From: Coriobacteriia bacterium
Lineage (GTDB): Bacteria; Actinomycetota; Coriobacteriia; Anaerosomatales; Anaerosomataceae
Assembly (NCBI GenBank): GCA_016933785.1
Contig: JAFGAG010000005.1
Location: 1-38,719 of the forward strand
DNA: 38,719 bases
Direction: 5' to 3'
Shown: positions 3 through 25,229 of the stretch, piece by piece
How the letters are laid out: every line of letters starts with the position of its first letter
Position numbering within the stretch: the first letter of the stretch is position 1
Notes under the pieces: model-generated
What the model saw: the letters and a program-made list of their open reading frames with translations, nothing else
Told to the model about the DNA's origin: nothing
Database searches by the model: none
Translations under genes and position numbers: made by a program

Positions 3-1445
3 CTGTACGTGGACACGAGCGGCAACCTCTACAGAGTCGAGGCCACGCTCGCCGGGCTCGATGGCCAGCCAGCGGCGACGGTCTATCTCGAGCAGCCGGA
101 CCCCGGCCTCGGGGATGGTAGGTTGTGGTTGGTCGTCACCGTCCCACTTGCACTGGGCCTCATCACGGTAGCCCTCGCCTTCCTGCTCGGCATGGCCATC
201 AGCCGCAGCGTCACCGACCCATTGCACCGCTTCGTCACGTACCTGCAGGAAGAGGGGTACCTTGCGCTGCACGGACTCAGGACCGACGACGCGCTCATGG
301 TCGATCCGGGACTCCCGGAGGACTTCGCCGAATTGGGTGAGGTGATAACCGACCTCATGAGTCAGCTCCGCGTCAATCAGGCCGAGCTCCTCGAAGCGAA
401 CGATCAGGCGCTCGCCGCTGAGCGTGCGTTCCGCACCGTCGTGGAGGAGTCTCCCGAACTCAAGATCCTCGTGCGCGACGGCGTCGTGGAGATCGCGAAT
501 CCCGCGGCGGCACACTTCTTCGGTCTGCATCTCGGTGATCTGCTTCGTGCGGATCCCGCCGGGCTGTTCAGCGGAGTCGAGTTCTTCAGTGAGGCCGGCG
601 AGCCGGTCGACCTGCTCGAGGCCGGCAGGGTGTCCGGCGGGCGGACGCAGGTGGTCCGCTGTGTCGCCGGAGAACAGCCCGAGCGCTGGATGGAAGTAAG
701 CGTCGCGTTCATCGATCCCGATCAACACGACTACGTGATCTCCGCCCGCAACGTCACCGAGGAGCGGCGCCTGGAGGCGCTGCGCGAAGAGGTGCTCTCT
801 CTCGCGTCCCATGACCTTCGAAGTCCGCTCACGGTGGTTCGCGGCTACCTCGACATCCTCGAGAAACCGGTCGAGGACCAGCAGCGAGAGAAGGCGGTGG
901 CGAGCGCACGGCGTGCGACAGAGCGGCTGGAGAGCCTGCTCAATGACCTTCGCGACGCGACGCGCGTCGAGCGCGTGCTCGCCCCGCAGGTCATGCGGCC
1001 CGTGGATCTCGGTGAGCTCGCGCGCCAGGTCGCCGGATCGCTGCAGATCGGCGCCCTGCAGCGTATCGTCGTCGACGCAGCCTCGCCCCTTTGCGTTCTT
1101 GGAGACAGCGACCGGCTGGAGCAGGCCCTCACGAATCTCGTGGGCAATGCGATCAAGCATGGCCCGCCGGAGGGCGAGATTCGGATACGCGTCTCGGAAC
1201 GCGAAGGCCATGCGGTCGTCGCGGTGGAGGATGACGGTCCGGGGATCCCTCTCGAGCATCGGGACACGCTGTTCGAGCGCGGAGTGCGAGGCTCGGAAGA
1301 CACGCCGGGGATGGGACTCGGGCTCTACATCGTGCGAGTCGTGTCTGAGGCCCATGGCGGCCGGGCATACGTGGAACCCACAGCCGACGGGACGAGGTTC
1401 GTGATCGAGCTCTCGTCGATCTCCTCCGAGACAGCCGGCCCCTGA
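3..1445 (+). CDS. Sensor histidine kinase, 5' end cut by the window edge
   Basis: Membrane sensor kinase of a two-component system. The frame is open to the window edge, so the N-terminal sensor domain is missing; a GTG at 9 is probably internal. Numbering from that GTG, one hydrophobic helix spans about residues 39-64. It is followed by a HAMP-like linker (about 62-120), a PAS-like domain (about 140-250), and a HisKA dimerisation helix with the phospho-accepting His268 in SHDLRSP. The C-terminal HATPase domain has the N box (NLVGNAIKHG), G1 (DDGPGIP) and G2 (GMGLGLYIV). The extracellular tail that remains before the helix suggests ligand sensing outside the cell. No response regulator is visible; it is probably upstream of the window. 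It converges with ddl, with only nine bases between the stop codons. The kinase assignment is firm; the signal is unknown. Confidence 0.93.
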   Translation: MYVDTSGNLYRVEATLAGLDGQPAATVYLEQPDPGLGDGRLWLVVTVPLALGLITVALAFLLGMAISRSVTDPLHRFVTYLQEEGYLALHGLRTDDALMVDPGLPEDFAELGEVITDLMSQLRVNQAELLEANDQALAAERAFRTVVEESPELKILVRDGVVEIANPAAAHFFGLHLGDLLRADPAGLFSGVEFFSEAGEPVDLLEAGRVSGGRTQVVRCVAGEQPERWMEVSVAFIDPDQHDYVISARNVTEERRLEALREEVLSLASHDLRSPLTVVRGYLDILEKPVEDQQREKAVASARRATERLESLLNDLRDATRVERVLAPQVMRPVDLGELARQVAGSLQIGALQRIVVDAASPLCVLGDSDRLEQALTNLVGNAIKHGPPEGEIRIRVSEREGHAVVAVEDDGPGIPLEHRDTLFERGVRGSEDTPGMGLGLYIVRVVSEAHGGRAYVEPTADGTRFVIELSSISSETAGP

Positions 1446-7876: not shown

Positions 7877-8915
7877 CCGCGCGCATGCGGACTTCGCGTC
7901 GCTGGACGCCGACGGTATCGCTCGGGCGCTCGGCGAGCTCGGCCAGCCCGGATATCGCGCGAAGCAGGTCCTGTCCTGGCTGTACGGGCGGGTGGTCGCC
8001 GACTTCGATGCGATGACCGACCTGCCAGCCCGGCTGCGCACCGACCTTGCGGAGGCCTGGTCACTCCAGCTTCCGGAGGCCGTCGACGTGCAGCGGTCTG
8101 CGGACGGCACCCGCAAGTACCTCTGGCGACTCGCCGACGGAGCGATGGTCGAAAGCGTGGGTATCCCGACGGATGACCGCCTGACGGTGTGCTTCAGTAC
8201 CCAGGCCGGCTGCGCCATGGGATGCACGTTCTGCGCCACCGGGCGGGGCGGATTCGTACGCGATCTGCTGCCCGGCGAACTCGTGTGGCAGGTGGCGCTC
8301 GTGGGTCGCGACTTCGGAGCACGGGTCTCTAACGCGGTCGCGATGGGGCAAGGGGAGCCGCTCAACAACTTCGAGGCGGTGTTGGGTGGCCTGCGCCTGA
8401 TGAACCACCCCGAGGGGTTGGGCATCGGTGCCCGGCATCTCACGATATCCACGTGCGGCGTCATCCCGGGCATACAGCGTCTGTCTCGCGAGGAAGAACA
8501 GTTCACGTTGGCGGTATCGCTCCACTCGGCGGTGCAGGAGACACGCGACCGGATCATGCCCGGGGTGCGGCGCTGGCCGCTCGCCCGGTTGCGTGAGGTG
8601 TTGATCGACTACACGGATTTCACGGGGCGCCGTCCGACGCTCGAGTACGCCGTCATCCAGGGCACCAACGACACTCCCGCAGAGGTCGACGCCCTCGTGA
8701 AGTTCGCGCGCGGCTGGATGTCGCACGTGAACCTGATACCGATCAACCCTGTGGCGGGTAGCACCGCGACCCGCCCGGGCCACGCGCAGGTACTTGCGGT
8801 GGCATCAGCGCTCAAGGACGCCGGGGTGGAGACCTCGGTGCGGACGGAGCGAGGCACAGATATCGACGCGGCCTGCGGTCAGCTCACGCAGAAGCACCGG
8901 CCTCCGGGCGTGTGA
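7866..8915 (+). CDS. rlmN: Dual-specificity RNA methyltransferase RlmN (radical SAM)
   Basis: Methylates C2 of adenine 2503 in 23S rRNA and of A37 in some tRNAs. From GTG 7866 it has 349 residues. This start is favoured over GTG 7869 by AGAAGG at 7851-7856, nine bases away. The radical-SAM CX3CX2C cluster is GCAMGCTFC (Cys116, Cys120, Cys123). The C-terminal methyl-carrying cysteine is Cys337 in DIDAACGQL. The S-adenosylmethionine-binding GQGEPLNN motif is also present. The start lies inside the end of the rubrerythrin gene. The 3' end overlaps the convergent addA-like gene by 32 bases. Both the family and its completeness are clear. Confidence 0.96.
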   Translation: MVNDRAHADFASLDADGIARALGELGQPGYRAKQVLSWLYGRVVADFDAMTDLPARLRTDLAEAWSLQLPEAVDVQRSADGTRKYLWRLADGAMVESVGIPTDDRLTVCFSTQAGCAMGCTFCATGRGGFVRDLLPGELVWQVALVGRDFGARVSNAVAMGQGEPLNNFEAVLGGLRLMNHPEGLGIGARHLTISTCGVIPGIQRLSREEEQFTLAVSLHSAVQETRDRIMPGVRRWPLARLREVLIDYTDFTGRRPTLEYAVIQGTNDTPAEVDALVKFARGWMSHVNLIPINPVAGSTATRPGHAQVLAVASALKDAGVETSVRTERGTDIDAACGQLTQKHRPPGV

Positions 8916-11900
8916 CCGGACATAGACCACCGAACCCAGGGCAGGAGTCGCATAGTCCCTGCGCATACGAGCCGAGTGGCTTGAACTCGCCTCGGCGTAT
9001 CGCGTGCACAGGTCTTGAGACCCGCTCGATGAGTGCCGGACGGTCGGACGCACTATAGGTGAATGTGATCTCCCGCATGCGCTCGACCTCGGCGAAGACC
9101 ACCTCCGCGCTCTCGGCCCCCGCGTGAAGCGCCGCCAGCGCGTAGCACTCAGCCTGCAACTGATAACGCCCTCGTGCCTCCCGGAGCTCGAGCGGGCCGG
9201 CTCCGGTCTTGTAGTCGACGATGAGCGCACTTGATCCGCTCCAGGCGATCAGATCCATAGCTCCCGAGAGGACCGTGCTGGCGATGGGTACGAGGAACGG
9301 GGCCTCGTGCTCGACCCGCTCCGCCGCGCGGATCCGCCCGGCGAGTCTTGAGTCGAGGAAGGTCTTCGCCGCCTTCTCGAGCGCCGGGCGCCGCGTTGGA
9401 TCGACGCCTGTCGCCCGGAGAGACCTGTCGATGACCTCATCCAGCACATCCGCATCTGATGCGAGCTGGAGTACCAGGTGCAGTGCGCTCCCGTAGTCGA
9501 GCGCAGTGGTGGCCCCGACACTCGGTGGAAGCGGGAGGCGCGCCACGCGCACGAGGTGGTAATGGTAGGGGCACCGCTCGTACGTAGCGAGCGCTGTGTA
9601 CGAAACGGGAGGCACCGACGTGACACTCGGCGTGGTCGGTGCCTCGCTCGTTGGCGCTTCCACGACCTTCGCGACCGCCGGCGCAACCATGCCTGCTGCG
9701 ACATCCGATCCGGCTACCACGTCCGCGGCCGCATCCTCGATGGTGCCCTCTACGACGGATACACCGATCGTGCCCACGCCTACATGCACCTCGCGGCTCG
9801 CGAGGCTTCCGGGCTCGCTCATACCGAACGCGCTCCTCAGGATACCGGGGATCGTGTCACCGGCCTCCCGATCCGATCGCGTCCTGCACACGATCGTCAG
9901 ACCCTCTCGCGCCCGCGTGCATGCGACGTAGAACAAGCGGCGTCGCTCGGCGTCACGGACCGCGGTCCTCGCATCGGCAACAGCTCTCCACGCGAGCGTC
10001 TTGTCGTTGCCGTCCGCACGCGGTAAGACCATCCCAAGCAACATCCGCCCATCGGTGCGCGCAAGCGCGATGCCTGGAGTGCTCGAGTCGGACGAGAGCG
10101 AGCCGACGACCACCACGGGGAACTCGAGCCCCTTGGCCGCGTGGATGCTCATGATGCGCACCGCACCGGAGACGGCATCGAGCGTCGCCTCCTGCTCCCC
10201 TCTCGAGTGCGTCTCGCGAGATTCGAGGCTGTGCAGGAACCCGCCGAGGCCACCCGACCCGCTCGCCTCGAACTCGTCTGCCATCCGCACGAGCTTCATC
10301 ACGTTCGCCCAGGAGCGGATGCCTGGCCGCCCTTCGGTGAACAATGTGAGGTCGTAGTCGACATCAAGGAGCGCCTGCAGCATGGTCTCGCCCAATGGCC
10401 GGACCCCCTGCATCGAGCGCGCGGCGTCCACCGCGGCGATCGTGCGTCCTGCCGCCTCCCGTTCGCCTCCGTCCGGAAGCCCGTGTAGCGCACGTTGGAG
10501 CGCCTCCCACAGCGAGAGGCGTCGTGATGGCCCGCGCTCACTGGTTCGCTCCGAACGCTCGGCGTCGACCTCGCTGCGGATCGAGAACAGCGCATCAGGG
10601 CCGAGCCCAGTGATCCTGCCCGCCAGCACGGTGAGAAGTGCGTGGTCATCTCGGACGTTGTCGATGACACGCAGGAGTGCGCGCACCTCGTGAACCTCAA
10701 CGCAGTCGAAGAAGGCTCCACCCGCAGCAAGCACGGCGGGGATGCCTCGACCCGCGAGTTCGCGTTCGACCGCCGCACCCTGCCCCCTGCTGAGCGCTCC
10801 CAATAGGACGGCTATGTCCCCGGGTTCGATGCCAAGTGCCACGTGCTCGGCCACGCACTCGGCGAGTGCAGCCGCCTCCGCGGCGTGCGGCTCGGTCTCG
10901 CCCGTCGCTGTGTCGACAAACCGGACCGCGAACCTCCCGAGCTGGGTCGGCCACTCAGGGCGGTCCTGGGGCGCAGTAGGACTCCTGAGCGTCATGTACG
11001 CTTCGCCGAGAAGGAGAGGGTGAGCGAACAGCCCATTGATGGCATCGAGCAGCGGCGGCGCAATCCGGTAGTTGATGTCGAGCTCGACGTGCACATCGGT
11101 CGAGCGTCCGTGCGCACGGAAGACACCGACGTCCGCGTGACGGAACGAGTAGATCGATTGATTCTCATCGCCGACGGTGCACAGATCCCCGTCCGCGAGA
11201 CTGCTGATGATTCCAAGCTGCAGTGCATTCGTGTCCTGGAACTCGTCGACCATCACCATCGCGAAGTGTCTGCGGTACCGCTCGGCGATATCGGGCCGCT
11301 GCCGGAGCATGTGCGCGGTCAGCGTCTGAAGGTCCTCGAAGTCCAGGACTCCACGCGCACGCTTCTCCGTAGCGTAGGCGCGCGCGAACCGCTCCAGCGC
11401 CCGCTTGAAGACGTCCTCGTATCGCGCCACCGCACGCTGCGCCGCGTGCATCCGAGCGGCATCAATGAGCATCCGGGCTTCATCGACGAGCTCCTCGTGC
11501 CCTTCGACGCTACGCAGTTGACGGAACAAGATCGCGGTGGCCGATGTGAGCACATCATCAGCGGACAACTCGTCGCGCGAGACGCGCTCCAGCAGATCTG
11601 AGAGGGTGCGCGCCGCCTGCGCGTTGGCGTCGGTCGTCTTGTTCGCGCGCAGTCCCGCGAACCCTTCGGCCAGCTCACTCGCGCGGCCGGCCAGCTCACT
11701 GAGCCCACGATCGACCTCTTCCGGTCCGATCACCTGAAGATCGTGCACCTCCAGACCGGCCGCGAGAAGATCCGCACGGGCAGAACGCAGGGCGTCTGCC
11801 ACGGTCGTGAACGACAGTGCTCCCACCATCTCGGCAGCACCAGGATCGCTCTCGATCAGATCACCAAGCACCTTGTCGAGCACGTCGGTCTCGACGACCG

Positions 11901-12276
11901 ACGACTCGATCCCGTCGAGCACCGTGAAGTGCGGATCGATGCCGATGTCGAGAGCGTGACGCCTGATGATGCGTGAACACATGCCATGGATCGTGGAGAT
12001 CCAGGACTCAGAGACCCGCCGGGCTGCGTCAGGCCGACCCGCGTCGATCAGGCCTCTTCGCATCCGCTCGTTAAGCTCCCCCGCGGCTTTCTCGGTGTAC
12101 GTCACGGTCAAGAGTGCGTCGGGCTCGGTCTGCTCGTATGGAGGTGTCCCGAGGACGGCCGCGACGAATCGTGCGGTGAGAACGCGGGTCTTACCCGAAC
12201 CGGCACCCGCCGCGATGAAGAGGTCCCGTGGGCCCGCGTCGACCGCCTGCTGCTGACGTTCGTCGAGCTCAGGCAT
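8884..12276 (-). CDS. addA: AddA-like UvrD-family helicase-nuclease subunit
   Basis: ATP-dependent superfamily 1A helicase fused to a PD-(D/E)XK nuclease, for processing double-strand breaks before RecA loading. The protein has 1130 residues. The N-terminal Q-motif region (LDERQQQAVD) is followed by Walker A GAGSGKT, motif Ia VTYTEKAAGELNERM, Walker B DEFQDTN, motif IV-like DENQSIYSFRHAD, and later SIHAAKGLEFPVV and FYVACTRARE. A low-complexity Ala/Val/Pro linker precedes the nuclease domain, which has ALIVDYKTG and LQAECYALAALH. Four cysteines bracket that domain (ERCPY, then CDSCPGFGGLC), an Fe-S-type pattern. The start at 12276 sits behind AGGGGGGAG and overlaps the stop of the addB-like gene by eight bases. 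The AddA name fits the partner gene; an AdnA-like assignment is an alternative. Confidence 0.88.
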   Translation of the reverse strand: MPELDERQQQAVDAGPRDLFIAAGAGSGKTRVLTARFVAAVLGTPPYEQTEPDALLTVTYTEKAAGELNERMRRGLIDAGRPDAARRVSESWISTIHGMCSRIIRRHALDIGIDPHFTVLDGIESSVVETDVLDKVLGDLIESDPGAAEMVGALSFTTVADALRSARADLLAAGLEVHDLQVIGPEEVDRGLSELAGRASELAEGFAGLRANKTTDANAQAARTLSDLLERVSRDELSADDVLTSATAILFRQLRSVEGHEELVDEARMLIDAARMHAAQRAVARYEDVFKRALERFARAYATEKRARGVLDFEDLQTLTAHMLRQRPDIAERYRRHFAMVMVDEFQDTNALQLGIISSLADGDLCTVGDENQSIYSFRHADVGVFRAHGRSTDVHVELDINYRIAPPLLDAINGLFAHPLLLGEAYMTLRSPTAPQDRPEWPTQLGRFAVRFVDTATGETEPHAAEAAALAECVAEHVALGIEPGDIAVLLGALSRGQGAAVERELAGRGIPAVLAAGGAFFDCVEVHEVRALLRVIDNVRDDHALLTVLAGRITGLGPDALFSIRSEVDAERSERTSERGPSRRLSLWEALQRALHGLPDGGEREAAGRTIAAVDAARSMQGVRPLGETMLQALLDVDYDLTLFTEGRPGIRSWANVMKLVRMADEFEASGSGGLGGFLHSLESRETHSRGEQEATLDAVSGAVRIMSIHAAKGLEFPVVVVGSLSSDSSTPGIALARTDGRMLLGMVLPRADGNDKTLAWRAVADARTAVRDAERRRLFYVACTRAREGLTIVCRTRSDREAGDTIPGILRSAFGMSEPGSLASREVHVGVGTIGVSVVEGTIEDAAADVVAGSDVAAGMVAPAVAKVVEAPTSEAPTTPSVTSVPPVSYTALATYERCPYHYHLVRVARLPLPPSVGATTALDYGSALHLVLQLASDADVLDEVIDRSLRATGVDPTRRPALEKAAKTFLDSRLAGRIRAAERVEHEAPFLVPIASTVLSGAMDLIAWSGSSALIVDYKTGAGPLELREARGRYQLQAECYALAALHAGAESAEVVFAEVERMREITFTYSASDRPALIERVSRPVHAIRRGEFKPLGSYAQGLCDSCPGFGGLCPVTRPEAGASA

Positions 12277-15190
12277 GGCGACTCCCCCCTACCGGACAGA
12301 AGGGCCGCGCGATGCAGTAGGGCGAGCAGCGCCCGTCGGCGGGGTCCGCATCGATCGCACCGGCGCGCATACCCCGCACCGCCTCATACGCGCGATCGCG
12401 GGCAACCTGGATGACCTCGCCGATACCATCGGCCCCCACCATGTCGGTCGACACGAAGGGCTTCCCTCGCAGGCTCTCGTTCACGAATCCGCGAAGGTCA
12501 CCGTGCTTGATGGACCTGTAGACCGCGCCTGCGACCTCGAGCCCGAGCCGCTTCGATGCGACGTACGCGTAGAGCGGAAGCTGCACGAGCCCCCGCTCCG
12601 CGAACCTTGTCACGCCGCGCTCGGCGCCCACCGCCCCCAGCTTGTAGTCCATGACGAACAGATGCGACCCGGTGCAGTCGATGCGGTCGATACGTCCACG
12701 GAGCGCGTAGCCGTCCATCGGTTCGGCGTCATCACCGGCCGTCATCCCGAAGGACCACTCCCGGTAACGGGGTTCGAACCCGGGTAGCAGCGTGGCATCC
12801 ACGGTCAGGATGCGGGCCGTCGATCCAACGGCGCTGCGAAGATCGGCGACCTCACGAGCGCCCTCGACATGTACCCCGGCGACCACCTCCGCGACGAGGC
12901 TTCTCAGCACAGCGAGAGCATTCTCGAGCGTGTCGGGCGTGACCCTGGGCTCACCCGTCGTCTCGATGAAGCGGTCATACGTGCGGGCGAGCACTTCGTG
13001 CGCCGCCTGCCCCGCGGTCGACGCGTCGACGCGGGCATCAAGGTCAGCTGGTCTTATGACACGCTCGATGTACCACCGGTACGGGCACTGCAGATACGTT
13101 TCGATGTCACTGACCGAGAAGATGTCGCGGTGCTGAAGTGCCCTGCGTGTGTCATCGGAGAGCGTATCGCGCCACGCGCTGTCGCGGTGAACGCGAGGTC
13201 GTCCTGCCGTGGGCCTCGCGGCGGCCTTGGTGATCTCGGAGCCCTCCTCGCCCATCAACGCCGCCGAACGTGCCTTGCGCCGCGATGTGGAGGGAGCCCC
13301 CTCCCCGCTGCACCCGGCATCAAGGCCGAGCACAGAGCCGCCCACACCCGGCCTGGGATCGAGTCCGCCCTCCCCGGCTCCGTAGAGGTCGAGGACCTCT
13401 TCCAGGAATATGGAGGGTTGCACGGGCTGCCCTCTGTCATCGTGAGATCGACGGCTGAGCACGAGCCGCTCGCGTGCGCGCGTTATCACCTGGTAGAAGA
13501 GGAGCCGCTCCGCAGAAACATCGTCGCGTGGCGCCGTATCGATGCCGGCCCGCGCCAGCGCCACCTCGGCACCCAGCGCACCGTATCCCTCATCGCGGCG
13601 GACGCGTGGAAACTCGTCCGCGGTGAGACCACCCACGATGACGCACTGGAAGCGCCTGCCTCGCACACGCTCTGCGCTCAGCACGTGCACGCACCCACCC
13701 TCTGCGGTGCCACCCATTGATACCGGAGTACCCCGTAGCGCGGTGCCAAGCATACGGGTGGGAGCATCCGCATAGGGTAGTCCGCGGAGGCCTGCGACCG
13801 CATCCACCAGCGCGCGCGCCGCCGCCGCGTCGAGCAGGCCTTCCGGCGCAAGCACGGCCCCCTGGCTGTGCGCTCTTCCGATCATCGTCTTCGCTAGCCT
13901 GTGCCAGCGTTCCTCTGAGCCATCCTCGGCAAGGCGGGAGCATGCAAGGCGCGCCTGTCGCATGAAAGCGGCGGTCTCTCCACTGAGCCACGAGTCGAGC
14001 CGCCGGGTAGCCTCCGTGCCGCCGAGACCTAGGCGCCGTATCCGCGCGTCGAGGTCGTCAAGGACCTGCAGGGAGGCTGGGCTGTACGGCGACCGCATGA
14101 GATCCATCCAGGTCACCCTATCAGCCACCCCGTTGCACACCGACAGTACGCCAAGCATGGCGCGTCCGAACCCGGTCCGCTCGAATGGGACTTGCACATC
14201 CCAGCAGACGGGGACGCCTGCCTCGTCGAGGGCGAAGCGAAGAGCCCTCACGTGTGCCATGGGATCACGCAACACGACCGCGATGCCGTCAGGCTCGATG
14301 CCCGAGGCTCGTGCGGCTTCGATCTCTGCGACAATCCTTGCGGCCTCCGAGACGCGGCCCCACGCCTCCGAGATCCTCACCGCCCCCGAGCTGACCAGTG
14401 GCACAGGGCGTTGTGTGCTGAAGTCTCGCTCGATGGCAATGAGTTCTGGTGACGCGGAGTACGGCTCAGCCGGCGCGACTTCTTTCATCTCGCCGACAGC
14501 GCACAGCCGAGAAACAAGTGCTGCGGCTGCCTCCGTGGCCGGCAGCGACGCGGTGTATGTGAGCGAGACGATCACCTCGGCACGCGTGGATGCAGCGGTG
14601 ACATAGCGCTCCTGAGGCCTGGTGAGACCGGTGAACCGATTGACCGCGATCAGGTCAGGAAGGTCGAGTGAGTCGATGCTGTCGGCGACCGCCCGGTACG
14701 CCTCACCGCGCTCAACGAGCCCCGCCGCGCGCAGCGCATCGAAATACGCAGCGATGAAGCGGACAAGACACGACCCGGGGTCGGTGCCCTGCACAGCCGC
14801 GCGCCCCGGTGAGAAGTCCGACTCGGCCGCTCGTTGGACGAGCCTCCCCATCATCCGCCGAAAACCTGGAGTCCTGACTGATGCGCCAAGATCAAGCGCA
14901 TCCGAGTAATTGACAGATTCTTCCAGTACGACTGCTCGCTGAGCCATGCTCACAAGCTGCCGCCCGTCGCCTATCGTCCTCCAGCAAGCATCGAGATGTG
15001 CGCCCAGTGTGGTGACCTCGAGCCCCGTCGGGCACTCCATCGCAAGTTCCGACATGGCTCGGGCGACATCAGGCGGTGAGGGCAGCAGCAGAAGCGCGTG
15101 ACCGCCTGAGGCGACATGTTGGCGCAACCGCTGATGGATGACACCGGTCTTTCCAGCGTTCGCGGTCCCTATCAGCACATGCAGCGGCAT
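12269..15190 (-). CDS. addB: AddB-like helicase-nuclease subunit
   Basis: Partner subunit of a two-subunit break-processing helicase-nuclease, 973 residues. The N-terminus has a Walker A-like GTANAGKTG, and the protein keeps a degenerate UvrD-like core (LSAERVRGRRFQCVIVGGL, YQVITRARERLVLSRR). The C-terminal PD-(D/E)XK nuclease has LFVMDYKLG and LVQLPLYAYVA. Iron-sulfur cysteines are in YLQCPYRWY and the terminal CSPYCIARPFC, the layout known from AddB. The start at 15190 is preceded by AGGAG, which lies in the arm of a 9-bp hairpin. The gene is upstream of and overlaps the addA-like gene, the usual addB-addA order. It follows the parAB-ytxH cluster at 46 bases and may be co-transcribed with it. 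Confidence 0.88.
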   Translation of the reverse strand: MPLHVLIGTANAGKTGVIHQRLRQHVASGGHALLLLPSPPDVARAMSELAMECPTGLEVTTLGAHLDACWRTIGDGRQLVSMAQRAVVLEESVNYSDALDLGASVRTPGFRRMMGRLVQRAAESDFSPGRAAVQGTDPGSCLVRFIAAYFDALRAAGLVERGEAYRAVADSIDSLDLPDLIAVNRFTGLTRPQERYVTAASTRAEVIVSLTYTASLPATEAAAALVSRLCAVGEMKEVAPAEPYSASPELIAIERDFSTQRPVPLVSSGAVRISEAWGRVSEAARIVAEIEAARASGIEPDGIAVVLRDPMAHVRALRFALDEAGVPVCWDVQVPFERTGFGRAMLGVLSVCNGVADRVTWMDLMRSPYSPASLQVLDDLDARIRRLGLGGTEATRRLDSWLSGETAAFMRQARLACSRLAEDGSEERWHRLAKTMIGRAHSQGAVLAPEGLLDAAAARALVDAVAGLRGLPYADAPTRMLGTALRGTPVSMGGTAEGGCVHVLSAERVRGRRFQCVIVGGLTADEFPRVRRDEGYGALGAEVALARAGIDTAPRDDVSAERLLFYQVITRARERLVLSRRSHDDRGQPVQPSIFLEEVLDLYGAGEGGLDPRPGVGGSVLGLDAGCSGEGAPSTSRRKARSAALMGEEGSEITKAAARPTAGRPRVHRDSAWRDTLSDDTRRALQHRDIFSVSDIETYLQCPYRWYIERVIRPADLDARVDASTAGQAAHEVLARTYDRFIETTGEPRVTPDTLENALAVLRSLVAEVVAGVHVEGAREVADLRSAVGSTARILTVDATLLPGFEPRYREWSFGMTAGDDAEPMDGYALRGRIDRIDCTGSHLFVMDYKLGAVGAERGVTRFAERGLVQLPLYAYVASKRLGLEVAGAVYRSIKHGDLRGFVNESLRGKPFVSTDMVGADGIGEVIQVARDRAYEAVRGMRAGAIDADPADGRCSPYCIARPFCPVGGSRHA

Positions 15191-19369: not shown

Positions 19370-20085
19370 GCCTGCGCCTCCCGGGCCTTGTAGAGTTTCG
19401 TTTGGATCAACTGTTGTATGACTCCAAGCAGGCCCTGGGTCACCCAGTACAGCACCACGCCTGCAGAAACGCTCCAGCCGAAGAACAGCATCATGGCGGA
19501 CATCATGTAGCTCATCTGCTTCTGCTGGGCCTGCGCACCGGGCTGGAGAAGCTGCGGAACAAGCGTGCTCGCGCCGAAGAGTAGAACGAAGATCAGGTAG
19601 GGGATTGCAGCGGTCAGCCCGTCGCTAGAGTAGACCTGCCCCGCGGAGAGCGTGATATCTGGAAGAATTATCCAGAATCGTGAGGCGGCCGCGGCTGCGG
19701 AGTCAGAGAGTGTCTGTATGTGCTGGGGGAACAACCCTGGTGTCTCGCCAGCTGTTCCCAGCATCCGGAACAGCGCAAAGAAGATCGGCATCTGTAGGAG
19801 CATCGGAAGGCAGCCCCCGAACGGGTTGACCTTGTTCTCCTGGTAGAACTTCAGGGTCTCTTCCTGCAGCTTCTCTTTGTCGTTCTTGTGCTTGTCCTGC
19901 AGTTCCTTGATCTTCGGTTGGATCCGCTGAAGTTCGTACATCGACTTCGTCTGCTTTATGGTAAGTGGCAACAGGATGACCCTGATGGCTACCGTGAGCA
20001 GGATGATCGCAAAACCGTAGTCGTGTACCACGCCGTACAGGACTTGCAGGATGTCGAACAGCAACTTCTCGATTGGTGCGAGCAC
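19366..20085 (-). CDS. yidC: Membrane protein insertase YidC
   Basis: Inserts and folds membrane proteins, alone or with SecYEG. The 239-residue protein is the short Gram-positive form without the large periplasmic domain. It starts with GTG 20085 behind AGGAGG about ten bases upstream. Five hydrophobic segments are visible, with the conserved groove arginine in VAIRVILLPLTIKQTKSM. A charged cytosolic loop follows (ELQDKHKNDKEKLQEE), then VNPFGGCLPMLLQMPIFFALF. I see no lipobox at the N-terminus. It is 111 bases downstream of yidD and overlaps jag. The gap contains an alternating CG palindrome and a TATA-like stretch. Confidence 0.96.
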   Translation of the reverse strand: MLAPIEKLLFDILQVLYGVVHDYGFAIILLTVAIRVILLPLTIKQTKSMYELQRIQPKIKELQDKHKNDKEKLQEETLKFYQENKVNPFGGCLPMLLQMPIFFALFRMLGTAGETPGLFPQHIQTLSDSAAAAASRFWIILPDITLSAGQVYSSDGLTAAIPYLIFVLLFGASTLVPQLLQPGAQAQQKQMSYMMSAMMLFFGWSVSAGVVLYWVTQGLLGVIQQLIQTKLYKAREAQA

Positions 20086-20182
20086 GAAACGCCACCCTCC
20101 TCGGGTTTGGCAGCAGGTCTTCGCGGGGTCGGCTCCACTCCGGATTCTTGCCGGGGGTCTATACGGTTCTCACACTATATAC

Positions 20183-20196
20183 CACGCGCGCGCGTG
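20183..20196. repeat. Alternating CG palindrome between yidD and yidC
   Basis: CACGCGCGCGCGTG is a fully self-complementary 14-mer ending one base before the yidD stop triplet. It is immediately followed, reading leftward, by a TATATA/TATAGT stretch (20174-20181) that could be a -10 for yidC. No matching -35 is visible. Confidence 0.4.
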
Positions 20197-20418
20197 TTAG
20201 GGCACAGGATCGTCCCCACCGGGATTCCAGGGATGGCAGCGCGCGATGCGTTTCAGCGCGAGCAACCCGCCGCGCGCGAGGCCGTGACGCTCGATGGCCG
20301 TGTACGCATAGGCCGAGCACGTGGGCGTGAAGCGACAACTTGGCGGGAAGAGGGGAGAGATGAGCCGCCGGTATACGGTGATACCGACCAGGGCCAGCGA
20401 GGTGAGGGGGTTTCTCAT
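20197..20418 (-). CDS. yidD: Membrane protein insertion efficiency factor YidD
   Basis: Small amphipathic membrane-associated protein (73 residues) that assists YidC-dependent insertion. It shows the family pattern of [37 protein letters not shown] and ends with [11 protein letters not shown]. The three conserved cysteines are in SCRF, TCSAY and RCHPW. The start overlaps the rnpA stop by four bases (ATGA). Its position between rnpA and yidC is typical. Confidence 0.95.
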
Positions 20419-20750
20419 CGATCGATCACGCCGGCACGCCGCAGGCCGGCCTTGATGCCCCGATCGAGCTCATCGTGCGGCGCAGTAGGCGTCGCAGCCC
20501 GCGCCATCAACACCACGTCCCATCCGGGCCATGGGCCCCCACAGCGAGATACCGCCGCCCGCAGCACGCGCTTGCAGCGATTCCTCAGAACCGCGCCACC
20601 AAGTCTCTTGCCGGCGACAAAAAGCACGCGGCCGTCTGAGCCGCGTGCTTCTGGTGTACGACTGATTATGAGTGTGACAGTGCCGCCTGCCGCTCTCACG
20701 CCCTGCCTGAAGATACCATCGATCTCGTTCGCGTTAGTGATCGTCCGCAT
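20415..20750 (-). CDS. rnpA: Ribonuclease P protein component
   Basis: Protein subunit of RNase P, which matures tRNA 5' ends with the catalytic RNA (not encoded here). The start is ATG 20750, giving [17 protein letters not shown] and 111 residues, the normal length. The RNR signature is present as [20 protein letters not shown]. Immediately upstream is a 7-bp hairpin whose loop presents the AGGG SD. The gene is 31 bases after rpmH and overlaps yidD. Confidence 0.94.
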
Positions 20751-20768
20751 GGGCCGACCCTTCGGCCC
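20751..20768 (-). promoter_or_regulatory. Hairpin presenting the rnpA SD in its loop
   Basis: Read leftward, GGGCCGA and TCGGCCC pair perfectly over seven bases and enclose the loop AGGG, which is the SD. The stem ends directly at the rnpA ATG. It lies in the rpmH-rnpA junction and could adjust the ribosomal protein to RNase P protein ratio. Confidence 0.5.
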
Positions 20769-20781
20769 GACTGTCCGTCGG

Positions 20782-20925
20782 TTACGCGGCGCTGGGGCAG
20801 AGGATCTTGCGGCCCTTACGGCGACGAGCGGCAAGGATCGCACGCCCGGCACGGGTCGACATACGCTTACGGAAGCCGTGCGTCTTCGCGCGCTTCCGGT
20901 TGTTCGGCTGATAGGTGCGCTTCAC
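20782..20925 (-). CDS. rpmH: 50S ribosomal protein L34
   Basis: Ribosomal protein L34, 47 residues, beginning [20 protein letters not shown] with the usual very basic body. The GTG at 20925 is chosen over the upstream in-frame codons because it gives the standard L34 N-terminus and has AAGGA eight bases upstream. The short C-terminal extension KILCPSAA is slightly longer than in many bacteria. It is first in the rpmH-rnpA-yidD-yidC-jag unit, transcribed away from the origin from a near-consensus promoter. Confidence 0.97.
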
Positions 20926-20977
20926 TTCTGGTCCTTCCATTCGGCGCGCCGGGCCTGACCCGGGCACAAGCCTGGCG

Positions 20978-21007
20978 ATTATATAGGTGCACTATCGTGG
21001 GTGTCAA
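20978..21007 (-). promoter_or_regulatory. rpmH promoter (near-consensus sigma-70 type)
   Basis: Read leftward, TTGACA (21002-21007) and TATAAT (20978-20983) are both perfect consensus hexamers with an 18-base spacer. The predicted leader is about 45 bases before the GTG of rpmH. This is the strongest promoter seen in the window. Confidence 0.92.
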
Positions 21008-21640
21008 TCCGAGCGAAGCGGAACCCGAAACGACACACCACACCACACTGCGCGCAGGCTCTTGATCGTTGATCTCACACCCTTCCACCCGCGGACCGCA
21101 AATAACCTTCAAATCTGTGGATAATGTGGAAAACCCAGGAACCAAGCACGCCCGGCCTGTGGATAACCTCTGGGGTCGCGTTGTGGATGACAGGGTGTCT
21201 TTGCTAGAATCGGCGGCGTTCCTGTGATGTGTCTTTTGATTGTCGTTCTTTGAAAAACCCCTGGTAAAAGGCTTCTTTTCTTGACCGCCTGCACATTGCA
21301 GTGTGACTGCGGATACAGGTTATCCACAGTCGTGTCAACCCTTCTTCGGGTCTATTCCACAGATTCCTGATCGAAAGGGCCGGCGGGTGAGTTCCCCACA
21401 GGCGACGCGGTCATGGAAACCCCTAAAACCACCTTGAACCGGCTCTACCTGCGTGTTCGGTGCCTGTTCGATTGGTTTTCTGGAAACTCTCTCCACAGGT
21501 GTGGAAAGGATTGTGGATAACCGACAAAACGCCTGTTCAAAGATTGTCATGAGATGTGTCTCAAGGTGTAAGTGAGGCTTGCGGATACGCCATCTACCAG
21601 CGGTTCTTCAGGAACGTTGATTTTGTACCGCTGTGGATTA
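21008..21640. other. oriC: Chromosomal replication origin (oriC) with DnaA box cluster
   Basis: A non-coding interval between divergently read rpmH and the HATPase-HTH/dnaA unit. Four perfect DnaA boxes (TTATCCACA or its complement) are at 21116-21124, 21158-21166, 21320-21328 and 21512-21520. One-mismatch boxes are at 21125-21133, 21182-21190 and 21632-21640. Two-mismatch boxes are at 21353-21361, 21392-21400, 21489-21497 and 21500-21508. The left boxes face left and the central ones face right. The relatively AT-rich stretch at about 21230-21285 is the likely unwinding element. Gene order and transcription direction on both sides support this as the origin. Confidence 0.92.
21181..21210 (+). 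promoter_or_regulatory. Candidate promoter for the dnaA unit, overlapping a DnaA box
   Basis: TTGTGG (21181-21186) and TAGAAT (21205-21210) are spaced by 18 bases. The -10 also carries the TG extension (TTGCTAGAAT). The -35 lies within the near-perfect DnaA box at 21182-21190, so DnaA binding could repress its own unit. The leader would be more than 450 bases long, so a closer promoter may also exist. Confidence 0.45.
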
Positions 21641-21661
21641 CTCGGTGGAATACGGTTCTGG

Positions 21662-22501
21662 ATGGGGGGTCTGGTGGAGTCTTTCTCTGATGATGGCGTG
21701 GTCCGCGAACCGCGCTCGGGGGGGGTCGCGCCGAACCCTCACTCCGCCGCCACGTCTGAGGCAGCGCTGGGTCCGGCTCTCATCGCTGTGTACGACAACC
21801 TCACCTCTTCGCCTCGTGTCGAGCGCATAGCACGCGACTCGGCGCGCGATCTCATCGAGGAGCTTGCGACTCGCACCTACCAGATTTCACACGAGGCTGG
21901 TGGGAAGGTCCCCTACATGGTGATCAGGGAGATCGTCGAGAACTTCATCCACGCTGGCTTCGATGAGGTGGTCGTGAGTGTCCTTGATGGAGGCAACACG
22001 CTGCGGTTCGCCGATCAGGGCCCCGGGATCCAGGACAAGGAACGCGCGTTCCTGCCAGGCTTCACCACCGCCACCGACACGATGAAGCACGTCATCAAGG
22101 GTGTGGGGTCTGGTCTACCGGTCGCTCGTGAGTGTCTGACTTTCTCAGAGGGCACGATCGATATCGATGACAACCTCGGCACAGGTACGGTCATCACGCT
22201 TCGGGTCTCCACCCCCGCCAAGGCCGCGCCGCAGTCACGACCCACCATCCCTACACCCCGGCTGGTGGACGACCCACCCCCCGACCTTTCGATGCGCCAC
22301 AAGAAGGTGTTGTCCCTGGTGATGGAGGTCGGAGCGCTTGGTCCTTCTCTTGTGGCACGTGAGCTCGGCGTTGGTCTCTCTACCGCCTATCGCGATCTCG
22401 AGCACCTCGCCGACCTTGGTTTGGTCGAGGCCGACCTTTCAGGGAAGCGTGTTCTGACAGAAGAAGGAATCCAGTGCCTCGACGCACTGTTTGGACGATA
22501 A
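21662..22501 (+). CDS. HATPase-fold protein with C-terminal winged helix, between oriC and dnaA
   Basis: Not assignable to a named gene. From ATG 21662 it has 279 residues. A GHKL/HATPase domain is clear: the N box REIVENFIHAG (Asn94), G1 DQGPGI (Asp118), G2 GVGSG (147-151) and a final GTGTVITL. No histidine-phosphorylation domain, transmembrane helix or sensor domain is present, so it is not an ordinary sensor kinase. After a Pro-rich linker, residues about 208-279 look like a winged helix (HKKVLSLVMEVGALGPSLVARELG, STAYRDLEHLADLGLVE). This suggests a cytosolic ATP-binding DNA-binding regulator. The start is uncertain: GTG 21572 would extend across the last DnaA box, and GTG 21674 is also possible. 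It ends 14 bases before dnaA and is probably co-transcribed with it. Confidence 0.8.
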   Translation: MGGLVESFSDDGVVREPRSGGVAPNPHSAATSEAALGPALIAVYDNLTSSPRVERIARDSARDLIEELATRTYQISHEAGGKVPYMVIREIVENFIHAGFDEVVVSVLDGGNTLRFADQGPGIQDKERAFLPGFTTATDTMKHVIKGVGSGLPVARECLTFSEGTIDIDDNLGTGTVITLRVSTPAKAAPQSRPTIPTPRLVDDPPPDLSMRHKKVLSLVMEVGALGPSLVARELGVGLSTAYRDLEHLADLGLVEADLSGKRVLTEEGIQCLDALFGR

Positions 22502-22515
22502 GGGGTTGTTGGTAG

Positions 22516-23886
22516 ATGGATGTGCAGCAGGTCTGGCAGGACACGCTTGACGTCGTACGGGGCGAACTGAACACACCGACATTCAAGACATGGTTCGAGC
22601 AGACCTCTCCGCTCGGTATCGTCGAGCATGAGATGTTAGTCGGCGTTCAGAACGACTTTGCCCGCGACTGGCTCGAGTCGCGTTACTCGGGACTCCTGTC
22701 CTCTGCCCTCACGCAGGTCACCGGTGCGCCGATGGTCGTGCGCTTCAGTGTGCCCGGAATGACTCCCACACCCGCCCCTCATCCCGAGCCTGTTCAGGTC
22801 GCTCCGGAGATACATCCTGTCTCGGTCGGGGTCACCCAGAAGGAACCGACAGCGGATCTTGAACCGAACTGTACCTTCGACTCGTTCGTCGTAGGCCCGT
22901 CCAACCAGTTCTCGTACCACGTCGCTCTTGCGGTAGCCGAGGCGCCGGGAACCGCTTACAACCCGCTCTTCATCTACGGGGGAGCCGGACTCGGGAAAAC
23001 ACACCTGCTCCAGGCAATCGGCTCGTATGTACGGTCGAGCTACCCACACCTGCGGGTCAAATACGTCACGAGCGAGCAGTTCACGAACGACTTCATCAAA
23101 TCGATCGGCGACCGCGACAAGAACCGGACCGAGGGTTTCCGTCGAGCTTATCGCGAGAACGACGTCCTCTTGATTGATGACATCCAATTCATTCAAGGCA
23201 AAGAGACCACACAGACGGAGTTCTTCCACACATTCAACACACTCAGGGAAGCCGGGAAACAGATTGTAATGACCTCGGACCGTCCTCCTTCCGAGATCGG
23301 TAACGTCGAGGAGCGGCTTCGTACCAGGTTCGGGTGGGGTCTCATAGCAGACATCCAACCACCTGACCTTGAGACCCGTATCGCCATCCTTCGAAGGAAA
23401 GCCGATATGGCTCGTGTGGCTGCACCAGATGATGTCCTTGCATACATCGCTGAACGTCTTTCCAGCAACATCCGTGAGCTCGAAGGAGCGCTTGTCAGGG
23501 TCGCCGCTTACAGTTCCGTCTCACAGCGTGCGATCGACCTCGATCTTGCGGAGAGTGTCTTGAAAGACACGTTCCCTGAACGTTCCGTGAAACCGATCTC
23601 CATCTCTACGATCCAACAGGAGGTCTGTCGGTTCTATCAGATATCGCGAGCCGACCTCGTTGGAGATAAGCGCTCACAAGCGATCGCGTTCCCGCGTCAG
23701 ATCGCGATGTACTTGTGTCGTGAGCTGACCGACTACTCACTGCCCAAGATCGGTGGGGAGTTTGGCGGACGAGATCACACCACAGTGATGTACGCGAACT
23801 CCAAGATTCAGCGCCTCATCAATGAACAACGCGATGTCTACAACCAGATCCAAACCCTCACGAACATGGTCCGACAGAAGAACTAA
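22516..23886 (+). CDS. dnaA: Chromosomal replication initiator protein DnaA
   Basis: AAA+ initiator that binds the DnaA boxes of oriC and opens the duplex. The protein has 456 residues. Domain I is at about 1-80, and a Pro-rich linker at about 85-110. Domain III has Walker A GGAGLGKTHLL (Lys161), Walker B VLLIDDIQFI and the sensor region TSDRPPSEI. Domain IV carries the DnaA signature DYSLPKIGGEFGGRDHTTVMYA. AAGGGG about 11 bases upstream of the ATG is the likely SD. The short gap after the HATPase-HTH gene suggests a shared transcript. Confidence 0.98.
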   Translation: MDVQQVWQDTLDVVRGELNTPTFKTWFEQTSPLGIVEHEMLVGVQNDFARDWLESRYSGLLSSALTQVTGAPMVVRFSVPGMTPTPAPHPEPVQVAPEIHPVSVGVTQKEPTADLEPNCTFDSFVVGPSNQFSYHVALAVAEAPGTAYNPLFIYGGAGLGKTHLLQAIGSYVRSSYPHLRVKYVTSEQFTNDFIKSIGDRDKNRTEGFRRAYRENDVLLIDDIQFIQGKETTQTEFFHTFNTLREAGKQIVMTSDRPPSEIGNVEERLRTRFGWGLIADIQPPDLETRIAILRRKADMARVAAPDDVLAYIAERLSSNIRELEGALVRVAAYSSVSQRAIDLDLAESVLKDTFPERSVKPISISTIQQEVCRFYQISRADLVGDKRSQAIAFPRQIAMYLCRELTDYSLPKIGGEFGGRDHTTVMYANSKIQRLINEQRDVYNQIQTLTNMVRQKN

Positions 23887-24128
23887 CAGGACCGGTGGAT
23901 ATCGTGTAGGGAGTTTTGTGGAATCACACGGTTAATTGTGGAGGAATGTGGTGGGGTGTTGATATGTGGATGGATCGGAGCATTCTTCACACAGATGTTA
24001 CACAAGGTGGATGACTACACTGACCAGGGAGAACAGGGGTACTCCACATCATCCACAGCCCCTATTACTACTGCTACTGTGATTGATTAATAAGAAGAAC
24101 CAGAAGACCTTAGGAGAAAGGGCACGGT
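23887..24128. other. dnaA-dnaN intergenic region with degenerate DnaA boxes
   Basis: A 242-base gap without a gene. It contains one DnaA box with a single mismatch (TCATCCACA, 24049-24057), a weaker one (TGTGGATGG, 23965-23973), and several GTGG/CCAC repeats. A short AT-rich tract (GATTGATTAATAAGAAG) lies just before dnaN. The gap may be a second origin sub-region, as in bipartite origins that flank dnaA. It must also supply any promoter for dnaN, but no clear one is visible. Confidence 0.55.
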
Positions 24129-25229
24129 ATGAAGATCTCGATCGCACGGGGAGAACTGCTCGATGCACTGTCGACCGTGTCACGAGGTCTTTCCTCGAGG
24201 ACCACACTCCCGATCCTATCCGGGATCCATGTTTCGACACGGGGAGACCATGCCGTGTTCCAGGCAACGGACCTCGAGGTCTCTGTCCGGACATCATGTC
24301 AAGCCAGGATCGATGAAACCGGCCAGACTGTGCTCCCAGGTAAATTGCTCACGGATATCGTCCGCAGCCTTCCTGAAGCTGGGATCTCGATCGAAGTGAC
24401 GGCGACGGGGAGTGCGAAAATCACCTGTGGGCAATCCTCTTTCACGATGAAGACGCTCTCCCCGGAAGATTATCCGAAGTTCCCCGAGGTCTCACCGAGT
24501 GAGACCGTCTCCTTGCCGACCGAGGAGTTCTCGCACGTCGTCCACCAAGTGTCTCGTTCCGTCAGCCGTGATGAGACCCGGCCTATCCTCACAGGGATCC
24601 TGGTCGTCGTGGAAGAAGGGGTCCTTCGAATGGTGGCGACCGACTCGTATCGGTTGTGTGTCAAAGAAGCTGCCGTGTCGGGTTTGAGTGGAGGAATGGA
24701 ACTTGTCGTTCCTGGTAAAGCGATGGAGGATGTCGCGAAACTCATCGGCTCAGCAGAGACCGTCTCGCTTGGTGTTTCGGAGAACCAGGTCATCTTCACT
24801 TTTGGTGAGACGACCTTCATCTCACGACGCATCGAGGGATCGTTCCCGAACTACCGTCAACTACTCCCCAAAGACTACGTGACCCGTGTCGTCGTGGACC
24901 GTATAGAACTCCTGGAGGCGGTCAAGCGGGTTTCGTTGATGGCACAACACAACTCGCCGATCCGGGTTGCTGTGAGTGCGGCCGACCACACCGTGCGCCT
25001 TTCGGCAACATCACAGGATGTAGGCGAGGCGAGTGAGGATATCCAAGCAACTCCCGAGGGGGAGGATATCGAGATCGCGTTCAGTCACGCATATCTCCTC
25101 GATGGTGTCGCTGTTGCCGAAGGGGATACTGTCGCACTGGAGACGACGAGCCCGCTCAAACCCGGCGTGATCAAGACCGCGGAGGGGAACGGGTTCACGT
25201 ACCTCCTCATGCCTGTTCGTATCAACTAG
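24129..25229 (+). CDS. dnaN: DNA polymerase III subunit beta (sliding clamp)
   Basis: Ring-shaped clamp that tethers DNA polymerase III and other enzymes to DNA. The 366-residue length and the three-fold repeated fold are standard: LPILSGIHVSTRGDHAVFQATDLEVSV in repeat 1, RPILTGILVVVEEGVLRMVATDSYRL in repeat 2, and the C-terminal YLLMPVRIN. The last segment is the typical clamp ending. The start ATG at 24129 is preceded by AGGAGAAAGGG. It is followed at 16 bases by recF. Confidence 0.98.
   Translation: MKISIARGELLDALSTVSRGLSSRTTLPILSGIHVSTRGDHAVFQATDLEVSVRTSCQARIDETGQTVLPGKLLTDIVRSLPEAGISIEVTATGSAKITCGQSSFTMKTLSPEDYPKFPEVSPSETVSLPTEEFSHVVHQVSRSVSRDETRPILTGILVVVEEGVLRMVATDSYRLCVKEAAVSGLSGGMELVVPGKAMEDVAKLIGSAETVSLGVSENQVIFTFGETTFISRRIEGSFPNYRQLLPKDYVTRVVVDRIELLEAVKRVSLMAQHNSPIRVAVSAADHTVRLSATSQDVGEASEDIQATPEGEDIEIAFSHAYLLDGVAVAEGDTVALETTSPLKPGVIKTAEGNGFTYLLMPVRIN

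Follow-up and report, generated by a model that had tools for sequence, protein, structure and literature searches.

The locus and the encoded protein

The window, by which we mean the whole stretch of DNA that was analysed (38,719 nucleotides of contig JAFGAG010000005.1 from a Coriobacteriia bacterium, GCA_016933785.1), carries a gene between rpmH and dnaA whose product joins a GHKL-type ATP-binding domain to a winged helix. The features of this GHKL-winged helix gene and of its downstream neighbour are as follows:

21674–22501, + strand: GHKL-winged helix gene, an open reading frame with Pfam matches, a conserved GTG start and 101 distinct homologues
21776–21829, + strand: N-terminal hairpin ALIAVYDNLTSSPRVERI, which opens the conserved core (A42, Y44 and P51 invariant in the alignment; strands at residues 39–43 and 52–56 in the model)
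21914–22210, + strand: GHKL ATP-binding domain (HATPase_c, PF02518; structural match to 3lmm), residues 85–183 of the frame beginning at 21662
21926–21955, + strand: N box REIVENFIHA (column counts over distinct sequences: E90 99/101, N94 101/101, H97 101/101)
22013–22030, + strand: G1 box D118-QGPGI (D118, G120 and G122 101/101)
22100–22120, + strand: G2 box and ATP lid G147-VGSGLP (G147 and G151 101/101, G149 100/101)
22211–22273, + strand: disordered linker (pLDDT below 50 at residues 184–202), variable in the family
22274–22498, + strand: C-terminal MarR-like winged helix with recognition helix STAYRDL (VIA Z 12–13; R244 93/101, L246 98/101)
22516–23886, + strand: dnaA (PF00308, PF08299 and PF11638), whose start lies 14 bases beyond the stop codon of the preceding gene, a short gap that is conserved

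The initial annotation had started the gene at ATG 21662, a frame that translates into 279 residues. Relatives share a GTG-GAG/AAG-TC start placed after a G-rich run, which in the window corresponds to GTG 21674. The open reading frame is real; because this start is conserved and ATG 21662 overlaps the ribosome-binding site, it probably begins at GTG 21674 and encodes 275 amino acids.

Residues 85–183 match HATPase_c with an E value of 3.7e-11 and a score of 43.9 against a cut-off of 26.4 bits, and the same profile is matched by 18 of the 18 members of the family alignment. The winged helix occupies residues 205–279 approximately, where the IclR and TrmB profiles fall slightly below their cut-offs (residues 210–270 or so). 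Pfam gave no HisKA or further domain, and sequence, Pfam and model agree on two domains only, with neither a sensor domain nor a membrane segment, so that the intact ATP site joined to a winged helix and lacking a phospho-acceptor domain, as initially described, was borne out. The AlphaFold2 model (built with 13 sequences; mean pLDDT 73) consists of the GHKL domain, the disordered linker and a confident winged helix; its first 32 residues are disordered, and the conserved core begins at residue 39. All complete members read contain the winged helix, despite a linker that ranges from short to long and Q/P-rich.

The N, G1 and G2 boxes of the GHKL ATPase superfamily are all intact. Six residues of the site (N94, D118, G120, G122, G147 and G151) are invariant in the 101 distinct sequences and E90 is nearly so; the GHKL domain therefore appears, from this pattern of conservation, to be under selection to bind ATP. 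An N box with Glu and Asn is of the type seen in SpoIIAB and in ATP-hydrolysing GHKL proteins, and the ATP lid, with GVGSGLP behind a PGFST-like box, follows the kinase/CheA pattern. Elsewhere in the window, positions 9–1445 (+ strand) encode an ordinary histidine kinase (HisKA and HATPase_c) unrelated to this gene, and two large AddAB-like genes lie near the origin at 8884–15190 (− strand), one for a UvrD helicase with a PD-(D/E)XK nuclease and the other for a second PD-(D/E)XK nuclease protein.

Distribution and linkage to dnaA

We searched for the gene within Actinomycetota, using 198 Coriobacteriia genomes and a 296-genome sample of the phylum. It was found in 186 of the Coriobacteriia genomes and in 122 genomes of the phylum sample, 34 of them Coriobacteriia and about 88 other Actinomycetota. 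Among the 12 Coriobacteriia genomes that lack it, seven gave no match for dnaA at E ≤ 1e-30, and in another the contig begins inside dnaA. The remaining four (G034, G071, G045 and G142) carry dnaA without the gene, which is therefore not indispensable: its function can be done without or be taken over by something else. The surroundings of dnaA were also inspected in 30 loci from phylum members that gave no match, and the gene was absent there too. Viral contigs yielded no relative of the protein and plasmids only weak partial ones, below 30% identity and with at most 66% coverage among the matches listed. Distances between the proteins correlate with those between the corresponding DnaA sequences (Spearman 0.70, 89 genomes), a correlation that any pair of vertically inherited genes should show. 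DnaA appears to be fast-evolving in family f22, where in several genomes it matched the DnaA of the window worse than 1e-40 and the ATP-binding partner was still found.

In 121 loci with both genes, the GHKL-winged helix gene lies upstream of dnaA and always on the same strand, mostly with a gap of 2–70 bases; larger apparent gaps are partly due to an unmatched DnaA N terminus. Removal of duplicate genomes left about 94 of these loci, to which 40 further genomes were added. The two genes are neighbours in about 134 of 134 distinct genomes in which both are readable, and in all but two the gene directly precedes dnaA in the same orientation. None of the loci with both genes readable had an unlinked copy. 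The position immediately upstream of dnaA, proposed from the window alone, thus recurs in related genomes, the opposite of homologues scattered and never linked to dnaA. The other neighbour is rpmH, and no sigma or STAS genes are found beside the gene.

Gene order around the pair does vary. The 40 added genomes, together with three that were re-checked, comprise 27 with the standard order (five at a contig start, with rpmH out of view), 14 in which the pair has been flipped as one block between rpmH and dnaN, and two with divergent genes. Block inversion was observed in family f19 (L122, L123, L129, L175, L177, L179, L181, L184, L185, L186, L190, L192, L193 and L194), where it takes dnaA away from its usual place before dnaN. 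One genus, g66, holds both orders (L120 and L192), from which it follows that the inversion has recurred, with ends that spare the gene-dnaA pair. In the two divergent genomes (G171 and G101, loci L169 and L170), the gene and dnaA share a region of about 535 bases, a layout that is common among regulators. Of all the evidence, this adjacency maintained through inversions speaks most strongly, in our view, for a joint function of the two genes; it must be borne in mind that conservation is general in the dnaA region and that adjacency could persist from its general synteny.

The origin region and candidate DNA sites

The following elements were identified around the gene and dnaA:

20978–21007, − strand: rpmH promoter, a perfect sigma-70-type TTGACA-N18-TATAAT on the far side of the intergenic region
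21116–21640: cluster of nine DnaA boxes, four of them exact TTATCCACA
21181–21210, + strand: promoter-like TTGTGG-N18-TAGAAT with TGC before the −10 element
21454–21472, + strand: direct repeat TGTTCGGT-GCC-TGTTCGAT, origin-specific in close relatives
21492–21505: inverted DnaA-box pair TCCACA-N2-TGTGGA
24043–24076, − strand: DnaA boxes followed by DnaA-trio-like repeats in the dnaA-dnaN gap, the likely unwinding site

The nine exact or one-mismatch DnaA boxes in the 0.7 kb interval between rpmH and the gene compare with 0.5 expected from shuffles, and none occurs inside the gene, so the boxes end at its start, as had been noted. The same annotation placed the gene between oriC and dnaA, which needs to be qualified. 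The gene does lie within the origin region; however, DnaA-trio-like repeats stand next to DnaA boxes in the dnaA-dnaN gap, an arrangement conserved in the relatives read, and the unwinding site is therefore probably located there, in a bipartite origin. Rfam gave no match in 20000–25000.

The promoter-like sequence at 21181–21210 directly follows a conserved exact DnaA box and recurs about 450–590 bases before the gene in 21 of 23 close relatives. A generic promoter scan did not detect it; judged from its sequence and conservation, it is likely the promoter of the gene-dnaA unit. Given the 14-base gap, dnaA is probably transcribed through the GHKL-winged helix gene, and both would then probably be under DnaA autoregulation. 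The gene usually comes first in the dnaA unit, preceded by DnaA boxes and a conserved promoter-like sequence.

The inverted DnaA-box pair was considered as an operator for the winged helix and rejected. It is present in 56 of 101 upstream regions of relatives (against 0–3 for other spacings) and absent in four of four gene-less Coriobacteriia, but it also occurs upstream of dnaA in 17 of 30 Actinomycetota genomes without the gene, which marks it as an element of the dnaA region. Whether or not the gene is present, Actinomycetota show this pair ahead of dnaA with a strict 2-base spacing (L139–L168). Because gene-less genomes have this pair directly before dnaA, the gene sits inside the dnaA leader, or regulatory unit.

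The direct repeat at 21454–21472, TGTTCGGTGCCTGTTCGAT, has an 11-base period. Its consensus, TGTTCGRT-N3-TGTTCGRT, is present at the origin in eight of eight close genomes, with one extra one-mismatch site in one genome, and is missing from more distant relatives, though the recognition helix is conserved more widely. We consider it a candidate binding site, either of the GHKL-winged helix protein or of some other protein that binds the origin. Comparison of upstream regions gave no assignable operator for the winged helix.

Possible function and relation to known systems

The best explanation of these data, which we hold with about as much confidence as doubt, is that the family is vertically inherited and encodes an ATP-dependent, nucleotide-switched DNA-binding regulator of dnaA expression or of the origin. 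The GHKL domain would bind or hydrolyse ATP in the cytoplasm, and would thereby alter how the MarR-like winged helix of the same protein dimerizes or how tightly it binds DNA. In this way the protein could tune how strongly the dnaA unit is expressed, how DnaA assembles at the origin next to it, or both. If a promoter with DnaA boxes on its flanks drives the protein together with DnaA, a feedback loop would result. In this scheme we infer the co-transcription with dnaA, the control of DNA binding by ATP and the dnaA/origin region as the target. The initial annotation had likewise proposed an ATP-dependent regulator of dnaA transcription or origin firing: a role related to dnaA or the origin is supported by the linkage in about 134 of 134 genomes and by the intact ATP site, while binding to the origin and control of dnaA transcription are inferences from it.

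Alternatively, the winged helix could regulate unrelated targets, such as nucleotide- or energy-responsive genes, in a protein that is merely locked in the dnaA unit. The general MarR/TrmB type of the winged helix, the lack of an assignable origin site in the comparison and the general conservation of the dnaA gene cluster are compatible with this; yet the pair stays together through repeated local inversions, even with the gene orientation flipped, while the surrounding order changes, and we consider unrelated targets unlikely. Rather unlikely, too, is a protein-acting kinase or anti-factor resembling SpoIIAB/RsbW, which would bind or phosphorylate DnaA or a helicase-loading partner and use the winged helix only as an origin tether. 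E90 and N94 in the N box are as in SpoIIAB, the gene adjoins dnaA, usually on one strand, and the structural matches include SpoIIAB, RsbW and UsfX at Z 7–8, level with histidine kinases. Against such a role, the SpoIIAB family model TIGR01925 scored 15.9 bits against a cut-off of 135, the neighbours are rpmH and dnaA instead of sigma or STAS genes, and DIP2311 of Corynebacterium diphtheriae is a far better structural match (Z 11.9 versus less than 8).

An ATP-driven dimer clamp comparable to GyrB and MutL, acting as a structural or remodelling factor that helps DnaA to open or organize the bipartite origin, would fit the location at the origin and the presence of E90 in 99 of 101 sequences, since GHKL domains with an N-box Glu often dimerize on ATP. 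Nevertheless, a lid of the kinase/CheA type speaks against it, as do the absence of a GyrB/MutL transducer domain from the Pfam matches and the PDB comparison, in which DIP2311 and kinase-type domains matched best; such a clamp is improbable. A bolder version of the nucleotide-switched regulator, which we put forward only tentatively, would make the family an ancient, dedicated initiation-control protein of deep Actinomycetota branches, the first GHKL-type ATP switch that reads the energy state of the cell, or its own nucleotide state, and sets the level of DnaA or its assembly at the origin. In other bacteria, initiation control is exerted by unrelated proteins, such as Hda, SeqA and YabA.

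We found no description of the protein or of its pairing with dnaA in the full-text literature, and a paper on DciA, another gene of the dnaA region, does not mention it. The fusion of a GHKL domain to a winged helix has precedent; the lock to dnaA has none that we found, and the pairing across the class and beyond appears to be undescribed. To our knowledge, hardly any work has addressed how replication initiation is controlled in Coriobacteriia, which are common gut bacteria, or in Rubrobacter-like groups. If confirmed, a conserved ATP-binding regulator locked to dnaA would provide a direct handle on this control in both.

Several known systems resemble parts of the protein. It shares with YabA, Hda and other DnaA regulators only the proposed role in tuning initiation, with no sequence relation, and YabA gave no match above cut-off in 21 relatives. 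The fold of its C-terminal winged helix is that of MarR, TrmB and Csa3 regulators (Z 12–13), which have effector domains or dimer helices of their own where this protein has a GHKL domain; PADLOC likewise noted a resemblance of the winged helix alone to CARF/Csa3 regulators, with no defence context. The CA domain of histidine kinases and CheA shares the G1, F-like and G2 boxes and accounts for the most numerous sequence and fold matches, but histidine kinases have a HisKA domain, a sensor and a membrane segment, all absent here, where a winged helix is found instead. SpoIIAB and RsbW have in common with this protein a small soluble GHKL domain without HisKA and an N box with Glu and Asn; they lack a DNA-binding domain, and the protein described here lacks a sigma or STAS partner gene alongside. 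Families missing from the fold lists were not counted as excluded. SpoIIAB/RsbW and histidine kinases are more distant than DIP2311.

DIP2311 (PDB 3lmm), like the protein described here, combines in a single chain a GHKL ATP domain with a winged helix behind it, and it is by far the best structural match, so that the fusion does have a precedent, contrary to what the initial annotation had suggested. It aligns with residues 34–274 of the whole model at Z 12.0 (rmsd 8.9, 188 aligned residues) and with the ATP domain alone at Z 11.9 (rmsd 3.8, 135 aligned residues), where the next match reaches Z 7.9. The Pfam profile of its winged helix, DIP2311-like_C (PF22168), matched one of 18 family members, at E=0.0012. 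At about 556 residues, 3lmm includes an additional N-terminal part, which we take to be AlbA_2 and which the GHKL-winged helix protein lacks; proteins with AlbA_2, HATPase_c_4 and a winged helix presumably constitute COG2865. Neither AlbA_2 (residues 1–32 are disordered in the model) nor HATPase_c_4 was among the Pfam matches, HATPase_c being the profile matched, and for this reason we do not file the protein as a DIP2311/COG2865 member. We know of no link between DIP2311 and dnaA and of no established function for it, and a regulator of the kind proposed would also give the first functional clue for DIP2311-type GHKL-winged helix proteins, whose structure is solved. In its architecture, the GHKL-winged helix protein could be described as a DIP2311 type that lacks the N-terminal domain.
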